A DNA stretch of 64,000 nucleotides from Prochilodus magdalenae (Eukaryota > Chordata > Actinopteri > Characiformes > Prochilodontidae), in assembly GCA_024036415.1 (NCBI GenBank), contig JAMWET010000570.1, forward strand, positions 1 through 64,000, given 5' to 3'. How positions within the stretch are numbered: position 1 is the stretch's first letter; the number at the start of each line of letters is the position of its first letter. The position numbers were made by a program, and so were the translations under genes. Below the pieces are notes generated by a model, which did not search any database, was not told the DNA's origin, and worked only from the letters and a program-made list of their open reading frames with translations. Positions 20,659-29,389 of this stretch are shown here, one piece after another.

Positions 20659-21060
20659 GGTAACACTTTCTATGAATCAGGTATCCATAATGCATTATAA
20701 ATGCATTCATAAACATCTATAAAGCATTCATAATGCTTTATAATACTTGACATAAGCCTTTGTAACTCTACATAAATGTTTATAATCACAGACATAAAAC
20801 GTTATAACATCACAGTATAAGGCTTTATAGCACAAAGTGCTATAATGCATTATAATATGTATATATTTCCAGTTCTTAATATTGCTGCTGAGACCCGTAT
20901 CATAAAGCTTTATAACAAATGTTAAGTTTATTTACATGATGCTTTAAAGATCCACAGTGATGCCCTCACTCAAACTGGTATACTTTTTAATGGTTCCAAG
21001 TATTTTAAAAATAAAAATGATTTTGTAAGTGCACATAACCTTTAATGAACACCTATAAGG

Positions 21061-21540
21061 TCTCTTTACAGACTTTAGGTAAAGTGATGTTATTGATCAC
21101 CTCTATATGTGCTCATAACACCTTATAAATCATTATAAGGTCTCTTTACAGACTTTAGGTAAAGTGATGTTATTGATCACCTCTATATGTGCTCATAACA
21201 CCTTATAAATCATTATAAGGTCTCTTTACAGACTTTAGTTAAAGTGATGTTATTGATCACCTCTATATGTGCTCATAACACCTTATAAATCATTATAAGG
21301 TCTCTTTACAGACTTTAGTTAAAGTGATGTTATTGATCACCTCTATATGTGCTCATAACACCTTATAAATCATTATAAGGTCTCTTTACAGACTTTAGGT
21401 AAAGTGATGTTATTGATCACCTCTATATGTGCTCATAACACCTTATAAATCATTATAAGGTCTCTTTACAGACTTTAGGTAAAGTGATGTTATTGATCAC
21501 CTCTATATGTGCTCATAACACCTTATAAATCATTGTAAGT
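21061..21540. repeat. six 80-bp tandem units in the left TIR
   Basis: The phrase TCTCTTTACAGACTTTAG begins at 21061, 21141, 21221, 21301, 21381 and 21461, exactly 80 bp apart. Units are nearly identical (GTAAAG versus TTAAAG variants). A diverged seventh start (GCTCTTCACAGACTTTAAG) follows at about 21,541. Each unit contains TTATTGATCACCTCTATATG and ACACCTTATAAATCATTATA. Confidence 0.97.
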
Positions 21541-21634
21541 GCTCTTCACAGACTTTAAGTAAAGTGAGACTGTCTTACGTACATCTAAACAGAAAAGTAC
21601 CAGAATCACTAGTTTGTACTTTGAACAGAGGTTC

Positions 21635-21640
21635 TTTATT
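21635..21640 (-). terminator. poly(A) signal for the transposase gene, inside the TIR
   Basis: TTTATT on the + strand reads AATAAA on the - strand, about 335 bp past the transposase stop, within the last 15 bp of the TIR. The same sequence in the other TIR serves the + strand gene. Confidence 0.6.
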
Positions 21641-21974
21641 GACAACATTTTTAACTTCAACATAATTTAATATCAACATTATTTAACATCAAATGTCTAT
21701 AGTCCAGTTATTTAAAAAAACAGTGTATAAAAAATGCAACATTACAAAGTTTAAATGAGATAAACACCACAAATATTTTTATAGGTACTGTCTATTTCAT
21801 CTTACATTTTGCAAAACATTACACAACCATAAATACTTTTCTGTTTGTAATCAACATATTGTCATGAATAGTACAGCAAATATTAGTACAATTTCAATAC
21901 TTATTCTAAGATATGATTTATACAACATTCATCTTGTTGTATGAATGAAAATTCAGAATATTCATCAAAATCAT

Positions 21975-23838
21975 TTAATGTCTTTTATACAGTTTTCTAA
22001 TGTCATGGAGCAATCTTCCAAGTATACCCCATTTGTGCTTTCTGGCAAGCCAGTGTTCCCACTCTATAATCTTTAGGTACTCTTTTAGAAGTTTTGTGTT
22101 TCGGTTTGCTCGGTGTCGCCACACATCAACCTTGAATTTTTGCCAAGCCCTCTCCAGGTGCTGGGTGTGGGCCCTGGTGAGTGGATGCACAAAATGTCTT
22201 TTGTGGCAAACAGTGTGGTGATCATAGCTGAGATCTGAAAGACTTCTATATGCTCGCCATTCATCAGTTATGATACTGGTGCCTCTTCTCACATAGCGTT
22301 TTACAATAGGTAGCAGCTGCTCACTTGACCTGCTGGAGACAATTTTCAGTATGGGCTTCCGGGTGGTAGAGCTTACTTCCAGAATTCCTAGAACCCACTT
22401 CTTGCTCCGCCACCAGGCAGAGCCTACACGTCCACGGTTGTACTATAAGAATTTTGGGGAAAAAATTAATAAGGTTTTCAATTATATACTGTAATGAAAT
22501 ATGTTTTGCATAGCACAATACAATGTTTTACAAAAGGTAAATATTTACTTGGCTAACATTTTATTATGTCCACCGGCACTGTAGTTTTAGTGAACAATTC
22601 ACTATTCAGTAAAGTATAATAAACTGGCAACTATGTATATTTTACCTTGGTGAAAATATTGTATTGTGTTATGCAGAGCATCCAGAGAATATAGGCACAA
22701 GGCAGTGGCACAAGAAATGGTCAAATCAGTTTATTTTTTATTCACTGGTAAATTTTGATATAGATGTCTATATAATGTATTACAGAATATAGAATGCAAT
22801 CTTTTTTTTCTAATATGTTGGGCAGTAATTGTGCACTAAACTGTGCTTTAAGTATATTCTCTGGATGTGTTAACTTATTTTCACAGGAAACAAATTTTGA
22901 TGAGTTATTTAAAATGTTTAAATGCAACTGCACACACACAAACAATCAAGGCTGTGAACCTTTCTTTTGTGTGAGAATTTACTCTCATCTATCATCACAA
23001 AGTGGTGTGGGCCTCCAACACGCAATCCTCCACGCTGACGAAGTCTTGTCATCCCTGAGATGCATACCTTAAGCACAAATTACCATGGTAAGTTTTGCTA
23101 TTATTATTATTAATTAATTCAGCTTTGCTTGGTAAAGCATTTAAAGTGAGGTTAAAATCTAGCCAGAGTGAAAATGCTCTTACTTTTCTCAATGCTGATG
23201 TCATCTTGGTCAGAGTTCTGCTACTGCCAGCAATCCCATCCTCGAGAAGATCTATTTGTCTCAGTCTCAGTCCCTGAGAAAATCTAAAGATTTGAAATTG
23301 CGTTACAGTTAGTATGTATGTAGCCATAATGTAATTATTGCTGGTTTTTTTTACCAGTATTAACAGTGAAATAAATTCTTATTGCCATTCAATTTACAAT
23401 ATAAAACAAACGGGACACTATTGCTTACCTGTAGATGAACTCTAGGTGCTGTCGAAGAGATAAACGGGAGCGAAAAAACATAGACCCCTTGCGAACAGAA
23501 GCTGTAACGTCTGTATGGTGATGCACATTCCTCGTACAACACCTGGCAAAATAATTGTTTGACAGCCAATACAATGTTGAATACATCCATATTTGATTCT
23601 CAAATTTGCAACACGTATTTTCTAATGTTAAGTTTTGAAAATTACCATCAAAATCTCACCATTGATATCCGTCTCCGTGGAACCGCTTGTGTAATTTCAT
23701 TTTTTTGTTGCATGTGTTGCATTTCATTGCACTGCGCAGAATCTGTTTTTTCTGCATCCATCGCACAATTTTGCATCGATTTCGGAGGTTATCCTTTCCT
23801 CTTAACAGTCCAAGAATTCTTTTTTGGATTAACGTCAT
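21975..23838 (-). CDS. Merlin/IS1016-type DDE transposase, five exons, apparently intact
   Basis: Exons on the - strand: 23,660-23,838; 23,429-23,542; 23,184-23,283; 22,960-23,067; 21,975-22,442. They total 969 bp, or 322 residues, with every junction in phase and GT-AG introns. I chose ATG 23,838 (MTLIQKRILGLLRG). Residues 30-62 hold a Cys-rich, zinc-ribbon-like start (MKCNTCNKKM ... YQWCC). A helix-turn-helix-like region follows (SLRQHLEFIYRFSQGLRLRQ). The ISXO2-like catalytic core begins at about residue 150. Asp158 lies in HFVMIDESKFSHKRKYNRGR, Asp227 in SIITDEWRAYRSL and Glu264 in AHTQHLERAW, giving a DD36E spacing. All three acidic residues are present. The enzyme should bind the TIRs and cut and paste the element in the nucleus. 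I see no stop or frameshift, so the copy may be active. Confidence 0.88.
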
Positions 23839-28150: not shown

Positions 28151-28417
28151 GGCATAGTTCAGCAATAAAAATGTTCTTTGGTTAATCAGAAATTTGCTGT
28201 TTTTGAAGTAGCAGGTTGTCTAGTTTTTCATTAAGTTCTTTAAAAATCATCAGATTAAAAAAAATGTGCAAGCAGTAAATGGCATTTAAGTTTGTTAAAT
28301 TGTATTTTGCTATGAAAGACAGAGCTTTGTTTGTATTAAAAAAAATTCTGCAAACATTTGTTCAGGATTTAACATCACAGATTCTGTTTTACTGGAAAAC
28401 CTGAATTTATTTTTGTC

Positions 28418-28423
28418 AATAAA
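28418..28423 (+). terminator. poly(A) signal for the passenger gene, inside the TIR
   Basis: AATAAA in TTGTCAATAAAGAACC, about 270 bp after the stop at 28,150 and at the inner edge of the TIR. It mirrors the signal used by the transposase gene at the other end. An earlier AATAAA occurs at about 28,164. Confidence 0.55.
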
Positions 28424-28503
28424 GAACCTCTGTTCAAAGTACAAACTAGTGATTCTGGTACTTTTCTGTTTAGATGTACGTAAGACAGTCTCACTTTACT
28501 TTA

Positions 28504-28983
28504 AGTCTGTGAAGAGCACTTACAATGATTTATAAGGTGTTATGAGCACATATAGAGGTGATCAATAACATCACTTTACCTAAAAGACCTTACAATGATT
28601 TATAAGGTGTTATGAGCACATATAGAGGTGATCAATAACATCACTTTACCTAAAGTCTGTAAAGAGACCTTATAATGATTTATAAGGTGTTATGAGCACA
28701 TATAGAGGTGATCAATAACATCACTTTACCTAAAGTCTGTAAAGAGACCTTATAATGATTTATAAGGTGTTATGAGCACATATAGAGGTGATCAATAACA
28801 TCACTTTACCTAAAGTCTGTAAAGAGACCTTATAATGATTTATAAGGTGTTATGAGCACATATAGAGGTGATCAATAACATCACTTTACCTAAAGTCTGT
28901 AAAGAGACCTTATAATGATTTATAAGGTGTTATGAGCACATATAGAGGTGATCAATAACATCACTTTACCTAAAGTCTGTAAA
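28504..28983. repeat. six tandem units (80 bp, one of 70 bp) in the right TIR
   Basis: The phrase TAAAGTCTGTAAAGAGACCT begins at 28651, 28731, 28811, 28891 and 28971, spaced 80 bp. The outermost inner copy, starting near 28,504, is followed by a unit in which GTCTGTAAAG is missing (CTTTACCTAAAAGACCTTAC). The array is the mirror of the left one. Confidence 0.95.
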
Positions 28984-29389
28984 GAGACCTTATAGGTGTT
29001 CATTAAAGGTTATGTGCACTTACAAAATCATTTTTAATTTGAAAATACTTGGAACCATTAAAAAGTATACCAGTTTGAGTGAGGGCATCACTGTGGATCT
29101 TTAAAGCATCATGTAAATAAACTTAACATTTGTTATAAAGCTTTATGATACGGGTCTCAGCAGCAATATTAAGAACTGGAAATATATACATATTATAATG
29201 CATTATAGCACTTTGTGCTATAAAGCCTTATACTGTGATGTTATAACGTTTTATGTCTGTGATTATAAACATTTATGTAGAGTTACAAAGGCTTATGTCA
29301 AGTATTATAAAGCATTATGAATGCTTTATAGATGTTTATGAATGCATTTATAATGCATTATGGATACCTGATTCATAGAAAGTGTTACC

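Follow-up and report, generated by a model that had tools for sequence, protein, structure and literature searches.

The element and its ends

A 64,000-nucleotide stretch of the Prochilodus magdalenae genome (contig JAMWET010000570.1, positions 1 to 64,000 of the forward strand; hereafter the window) carries at 20659-29389 a DNA transposon of 8,731 bp, with exact 8-bp duplications on both flanks, terminal inverted repeats (TIRs) of nearly one kilobase and two divergent spliced genes, one for a DDE transposase and the other for a protein of the CCDC106 family. The element is almost certainly a two-gene transposon of the Merlin type. A first-pass annotation of this DNA had the coordinates, exon counts and orientations right, and the 8-bp direct repeats and mirror-image ends of about 0.98 kb that it described are all present. 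The features of the ends are as follows.

20651-20658, unstranded: left 8-bp target duplication AAGATTAC, exact
29390-29397, unstranded: right 8-bp target duplication AAGATTAC, exact
20659-21645, plus strand: left TIR, 987 bp, from alignment against the right TIR
28413-29389, minus strand: right TIR, 977 bp, from alignment against the left TIR
21054-21567, unstranded: 80-bp tandem array in the left TIR, 6.4 copies
28491-28994, unstranded: 80-bp tandem array in the right TIR, 6.4 copies
28747-28768, unstranded: one instance of the 80-bp unit's strongest dyad (arms of 9 bp, spacer of 4 bp), a candidate protein-binding site
28804-28824, unstranded: one instance of a second dyad of the unit (6-bp arms, 9-bp spacer), a putative site of the same kind
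28418-28423, plus strand: AATAAA at the inner end of the right TIR, candidate poly(A) signal
21635-21640, minus strand: mirror-image AATAAA at the inner end of the left TIR, candidate poly(A) signal

The 8-mer AAGATTAC is common within the window (3 occurrences observed against 3.28 expected from shuffling), and its rarity was therefore dropped as evidence of duplication; its value lies in its placement at both ends of the element. The terminus GGTAACACTTTC is found at 20659-20670 on the plus strand and at 29378-29389 on the minus strand, so that both TIRs start with GG. With at most one mismatch, it matched the window twice, at the element ends only (0.36 expected; 2 of 100 shuffles reached two matches). 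The alignment of the two TIRs has 987 columns, including 6 mismatches and a single gap of 10 nt; with the gap set aside, the identity is 99.4%. The tandem array of each arm begins about 395 bp inward, and its 80-bp unit contains three dyads, the summed arm length of which was matched in 1 of 2000 shuffles. A further AATAAA is located at 28164, directly past the CCDC106-like gene. No further match to the TIRs, the interior or the element proteins was found elsewhere in the 64-kb window, and Rfam at gathering thresholds gave no match.

The transposase and its CCDC106-like partner

The five-exon, in-phase transposase gene reported by the first-pass annotation lies on the minus strand and encodes 322 amino acids without a stop. 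All four introns are GT-AG, and the junctions of exons 2-5 are consistent with a related-fish protein (P0032).

23660-23838, minus strand: exon 1, start codon at 23838
23429-23542, minus strand: exon 2
23184-23283, minus strand: exon 3
22960-23067, minus strand: exon 4
21975-22442, minus strand: exon 5, including the stop codon

The protein matched Pfam DDE_Tnp_IS1595 with an E-value of 3.6e-20 and 73 bits (cut-off 27); the NCBIfam IS1595 model matched with an E-value of 6e-20, but at 72 bits, below its cut-off of 75. The DDE triad is intact (D157/D227/E264). In alignment A2, which holds 20 of the 46 transposase relatives, D227 and E264 are nearly invariant, and within the first motif D158 and E159 (A2 numbering) are invariant; alignment A4 holds 43 of the 46, without P0047, P0051 and P0064. 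Five of 72,556 plasmid records matched the transposase at 25-31% identity, and all five are annotated as IS1595 family transposases. Structural comparison found an integrase-like fold in 50 of the 50 matches listed, and a sequence search of solved structures gave only two weak matches (E-value 0.31 or worse). A transposase phylogeny had been proposed as a check, and in it the fish proteins form a clade (100/99) against an outgroup of four bacterial IS1595 rows, the reference rows being bacterial only; the fish group includes P0055, a record without an organism name. Judged by Pfam, the bacterial matches and the tree, the transposase is of the IS1595/Merlin kind. The type names used in the first-pass annotation, IS1016 and ISXO2, we take to be group names within the bacterial IS1595 family.

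The second gene, correctly placed facing the other way, had been left without a family name. It is transcribed from the plus strand, divergently from the transposase, and its six exons encode 265 amino acids without a stop. All five introns are in phase 1, intron 1 being GC-AG and the remainder GT-AG, and the junctions are consistent with another related-fish protein (P0001).

23839-24559, unstranded: 721-bp interval between the divergent start codons, candidate two-way promoter
24560-24686, plus strand: exon 1, GC donor
25395-25538, plus strand: exon 2, coiled coil
25717-25785, plus strand: exon 3, without counterpart in the annotated Prochilodus proteins P0004, P0006 and P0010
26710-26760, plus strand: exon 4
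27664-27765, plus strand: exon 5
27846-28150, plus strand: exon 6, C-terminal helical domain, including the stop codon

At exon 5, P0001 and P0005 carry four additional residues, compatible with an acceptor 12 nt upstream. The protein matched Pfam PF15794 (CCDC106) with an E-value of 4.6e-48, the match covering positions 5-219 of the 220 in the profile, and by this measure it belongs to the CCDC106 family. The structure prediction gives a long helix together with a helical domain similar to those of DNA-binding proteins. In the structural comparison, 16 of the 31 matches listed cover the C-terminal domain, and 15 of these 16 are DNA-binding proteins or a sigma factor; the sequence search of solved structures gave only five weak matches (E-value 0.31 or worse). 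One of the fold matches prompted the idea of common descent with the plant LEAFY DNA-binding domain, which profile comparison did not support (probability 0.4%, with 21 of 200 column-shuffled controls as high; the profiles were thin, with Neff about 2, and the power was low). The LEAFY fold score lay below the reliability level of the tool, and when 45 members were scanned against Pfam up to an E-value of 10, no LEAFY family was among the 25 listed of 42 families.

Two annotated selectin-like proteins of Pygocentrus nattereri, P0009 and P0014, end in CCDC106 sequence of the transposon type. P0009 combines lectin, EGF, Sushi and CCDC106 domains, and the CCDC106 part of both proteins starts at the boundary of exon 3 or exon 4. 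Exon capture, to which introns all in phase 1 are suited, and an artefact of gene prediction are equally possible sources of the fusion. These two proteins and P0007 and P0012 of the same species share the end GVFQAL, 43 residues before the end of the window protein, and perhaps constitute a truncated subfamily that spread.

Recurrence of the gene pair and origin of the partner

The relatives compared comprised 30 CCDC106-type proteins and 46 transposases, among which linkage is visible only through locus tags. Consecutive tags for a transposase and a CCDC106-like protein were found in two pairs from two fish orders. The pair of Prochilodus magdalenae (Characiformes) consists of NFI96_026131 (P0005, CCDC106-like) and NFI96_026132 (P0031), both with a longest contig of 207,004, and that of Coilia grayii (Clupeiformes) of ACEWY4_007787 (P0013, CCDC106-like) and ACEWY4_007786 (P0070), both with a longest contig of 42,522,485. 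From the tags and the matching longest-contig values, the members of each pair appear to share one contig. P0005 is 94% identical to the window partner over 178 residues. Towards Coilia, the identity falls to 53% for the transposase (partial, 196 amino acids) and to 51% (alignment A1) or 42% (BLASTP) for the partner. Since the pair has been kept while about half of the residues changed, it is hardly a recent accident, and the partner is probably no accidental passenger. The suggestion of a Merlin lineage with a partner gene is supported, the pair recurring in other fish.

Fifteen of the 30 CCDC106-type proteins (P0001-P0014 and P0017) were classed as transposon-type by similarity and multiplicity; they show four distinct longest-contig values in Prochilodus, three in Pygocentrus and two in Coilia. 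Over its 187 residues, P0004 (Prochilodus NFI96_005726) matches the window partner without a mismatch, and within the stretch covered it lacks exon 3 alone. Of the 15 transposon-type proteins, two, P0005 and P0013, are accompanied by a transposase under an adjacent locus tag. Two observations weigh against the partner as a regular component of the element: by locus-tag linkage, no partner was seen for the other 44 of the 46 transposase relatives, and in the transposase tree the two documented pairs belong to separate subclades. The pairing may be ancient, with partners lost or undetected since, or it may have had two origins. Among viral contigs, 7 and 44 pattern matches were obtained, of which none was confirmed as a relative.

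The best-surviving alternative is that a one-gene Merlin captured a host gene of the CCDC106 family by transduplication, the second gene then being cargo with no role in transposition. Host genes of this family are present in teleosts, and the 44 transposases for which no partner was seen would fit such a capture. Against it, the pair recurs in two fish orders at high divergence, and the partner frame is open with the complete domain kept.

The partner tree also bears on this alternative. Its 40 chosen rows were the window protein, 9 of the 15 transposon-type proteins (P0006, P0008, P0009, P0010, P0011 and P0014 were left out), 16 KIAA1958-like and 14 CCDC106b-like rows; a second tree additionally omitted P0007, P0012 and P0017. 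Both trees were unrooted, and the host rows were all teleost, without human, other tetrapod or invertebrate sequence. The underlying profile search gave 331 proteins, the best 120 of which were listed, so tetrapod or further transposon-borne members may be among the rest; alignment A3 holds 45 of the 137 CCDC106-type proteins among the matches listed. Support is 100/100 both for the teleost host group of 16 KIAA1958/CCDC106a-like rows and for that of 14 CCDC106b-like rows. The transposon-type rows belong to neither and stand between the two long-stemmed clades, in two lineages of eight characiform (100/98) and two Coilia rows (97/85). The characiform rows lie beside the KIAA1958-like group with weak support (88/55). 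The transposon-type rows formed a single clade in 8% of bootstrap trees, and constraining them to one clade was not rejected (approximately unbiased test, p = 0.484; 0.518 without three odd rows). Because the transposon-type rows fall outside both host clades, the tree disfavours either teleost host gene as the source of a recent capture, and we regard capture as unlikely. Instead, the partner is very probably an inherited component of the element.

A reverse course of events can be envisaged, in which the vertebrate CCDC106 family, its human p53-binding member included, descends from the helper gene of a Merlin-type element. The C-terminal domain would first have bound transposon ends, perhaps blunting the p53 response to excision breaks, and host genes would then have been domesticated. 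The position of the transposon-type rows, between the host clades and inside neither, allows this scenario without showing it, since a single clade of these rows is not rejected either; we consider the scenario speculative and rather improbable. Should the transposon proteins turn out to be basal once the tree is rooted, CCDC106 would be a tamed transposon gene. A C-terminal CCDC106 domain is present in fish proteins named KIAA1958, such as P0096 (E-value 8.1e-35), and KIAA1958 is among the topics of PMC3212892, a paper that deals with Crypton transposons and domestication.

Proposed mechanism, setting and significance

We consider it probable that the locus is a complete cut-and-paste Merlin transposon, related to IS1595, in which two genes cooperate, the CCDC106-like protein being the helper. 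The transposase would cut at the GG...CC ends and thereby produce the 8-bp duplication. The CCDC106-like protein would dimerise via its long helix and, with its helical C-terminal domain, bind the dyads of the 80-bp arrays and the outer TIRs; in this way it could help to find or pair the ends, or control the divergent promoter. The mirror-image AATAAA signals in the TIRs may terminate both outward-reading transcripts. We somewhat favour the role of a DNA-binding helper for the partner, because the matches to its predicted C-terminal fold are mostly DNA-binding proteins and the 80-bp unit holds dyads.

Instead of binding the ends, the partner could act on the host, for example on p53, and protect cells that undergo its transposition. 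Human CCDC106 is described as binding the p53 transactivation domain, by its C-terminal half, with a dissociation constant of 0.32 µM (PMC10713525), and the Pfam domain of the human protein also covers the transposon protein. However, p53 binding is known for the human protein only, and the fold matches and TIR dyads favour DNA as the target. Such a role is improbable in our view, and it would not be exclusive of a helper function at the ends; if the transposon partner also bound p53, it could dampen the response of p53 to breaks left by excision. A chance inverted duplication flanking two host genes, with no transposon involved, might be entertained because a single DNA-level copy was seen in the window, but it is hardly credible given the exact 8-bp duplications directly outside TIRs with a Merlin GG terminus, the IS1595-type transposase inside and the recurrence of this gene pair in further fish.

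The first-pass annotation had argued for recent, perhaps ongoing, activity from near-identical TIRs and open frames. TIR arms are not made anew with every insertion, and gene conversion can homogenise them; near-identical arms are therefore weak evidence of youth, and TIR identity was rejected as a clock. The open frames stand and, together with the exact duplications and the 94-96% identical annotated Prochilodus relatives, make recent activity no more than plausible. As a whole, that interpretation is thus partly supported. Intron 4 of the CCDC106-like gene contains at 26983-27198 (minus strand) a Tc1/mariner-type DDE fragment (Pfam DDE_3, E-value 5.4e-4, below cut-off), probably a nested relic, and this copy, or its source, is therefore old enough to have taken an insertion.

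To the right of the element, an open frame at 29550-30848 (minus strand) encodes an AIG1/GIMAP-type GTPase domain (Pfam E-value 1.7e-47) and ends 160 bp from the element, which thus sits just downstream of an immunity-type GTPase gene. About 0.9 kb to the left, a stop-free frame of 284 amino acids at 18916-19770 (minus strand) encodes a Tc1-type transposase (Pfam HTH_Tnp_Tc3_2, DDE_3 and HTH_SB). Farther away, ALKBH8_N (E-value 2.1e-8) was matched at 38764-40491 (plus strand) and Exo_endo_phos (E-value 1.2e-15) at 46879-47685, within 46287-49252 (minus strand). Both regions are probable pieces of long interspersed nuclear elements; the frame at 48113-49252 (minus strand) had no Pfam match. Diverged repeat pairs, about 74-92% identical by piece, join 2653-3543 with 49688-50580 and 53981-55298 with 56928-58805.

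With the Merlin superfamily, the element shares the IS1595-type DDE transposase and its grouping with IS1595, the DDE triad, a duplication within the 8-9 bp usual for Merlins (exactly 8 bp, in one copy), GG termini and internal tandem repeats. Such repeats are on record in Merlins (PMC8101967) and were rejected as a novelty. The element differs in its length of 8.7 kb, its introns, a zinc-ribbon-like N-terminus of the transposase, where the Merlins described in PMC8101967 lack the IS1595 zinc ribbon, its second gene of the CCDC106 family and its TIRs. The latter, at 987 and 977 bp, exceed the 24-462 bp of Feschotte 2004 as cited in PMC8101967, which is a described range and not a defining limit; small TIRs were also given as usual for Merlins in the first-pass annotation. 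The main text of PMC8101967 contains no occurrence of "two ORFs", "second ORF" or "intron". The bacterial IS1595 family shares the transposase family and the 8-bp duplications, whereas spliced eukaryotic genes, kilobase TIRs and a second gene set the present element apart.

Two-gene PHIS elements (PIF/Harbinger, ISL2EU, NuwaI/II) are described as combining one DDE transposase gene with one gene for a DNA-binding protein (PMC4482050). Their transposase is a different one, and their partner is Myb/SANT or YqaJ instead of CCDC106; the two kinds of element resemble each other in design and not by descent. Human CCDC106 and teleost proteins named CCDC106 or KIAA1958 share PF15794 with the transposon protein over its whole length, the latter differing in being transposon-borne. 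The AlphaFold model of human CCDC106 is described as a long helix with a compact helical C-terminal domain (PMC10713525), an arrangement also predicted for the transposon protein. Among the matches listed, our literature search, with most subscription journals outside its coverage, had no two-gene Merlin and no link between CCDC106 and transposons. The new points are the TIR length and the second gene.

If the partner is truly conserved, Merlin would share the two-component organisation of PIF/Harbinger-type elements, and the present copy would offer an apparently intact candidate for assaying transposition in a vertebrate system. What is known of the CCDC106 family comes mostly from studies of p53 in cancer, and a member in a mobile element suggests a possible DNA-binding ancestry. 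Whether transposons captured a host gene or hosts tamed a transposon gene becomes a directly testable question.

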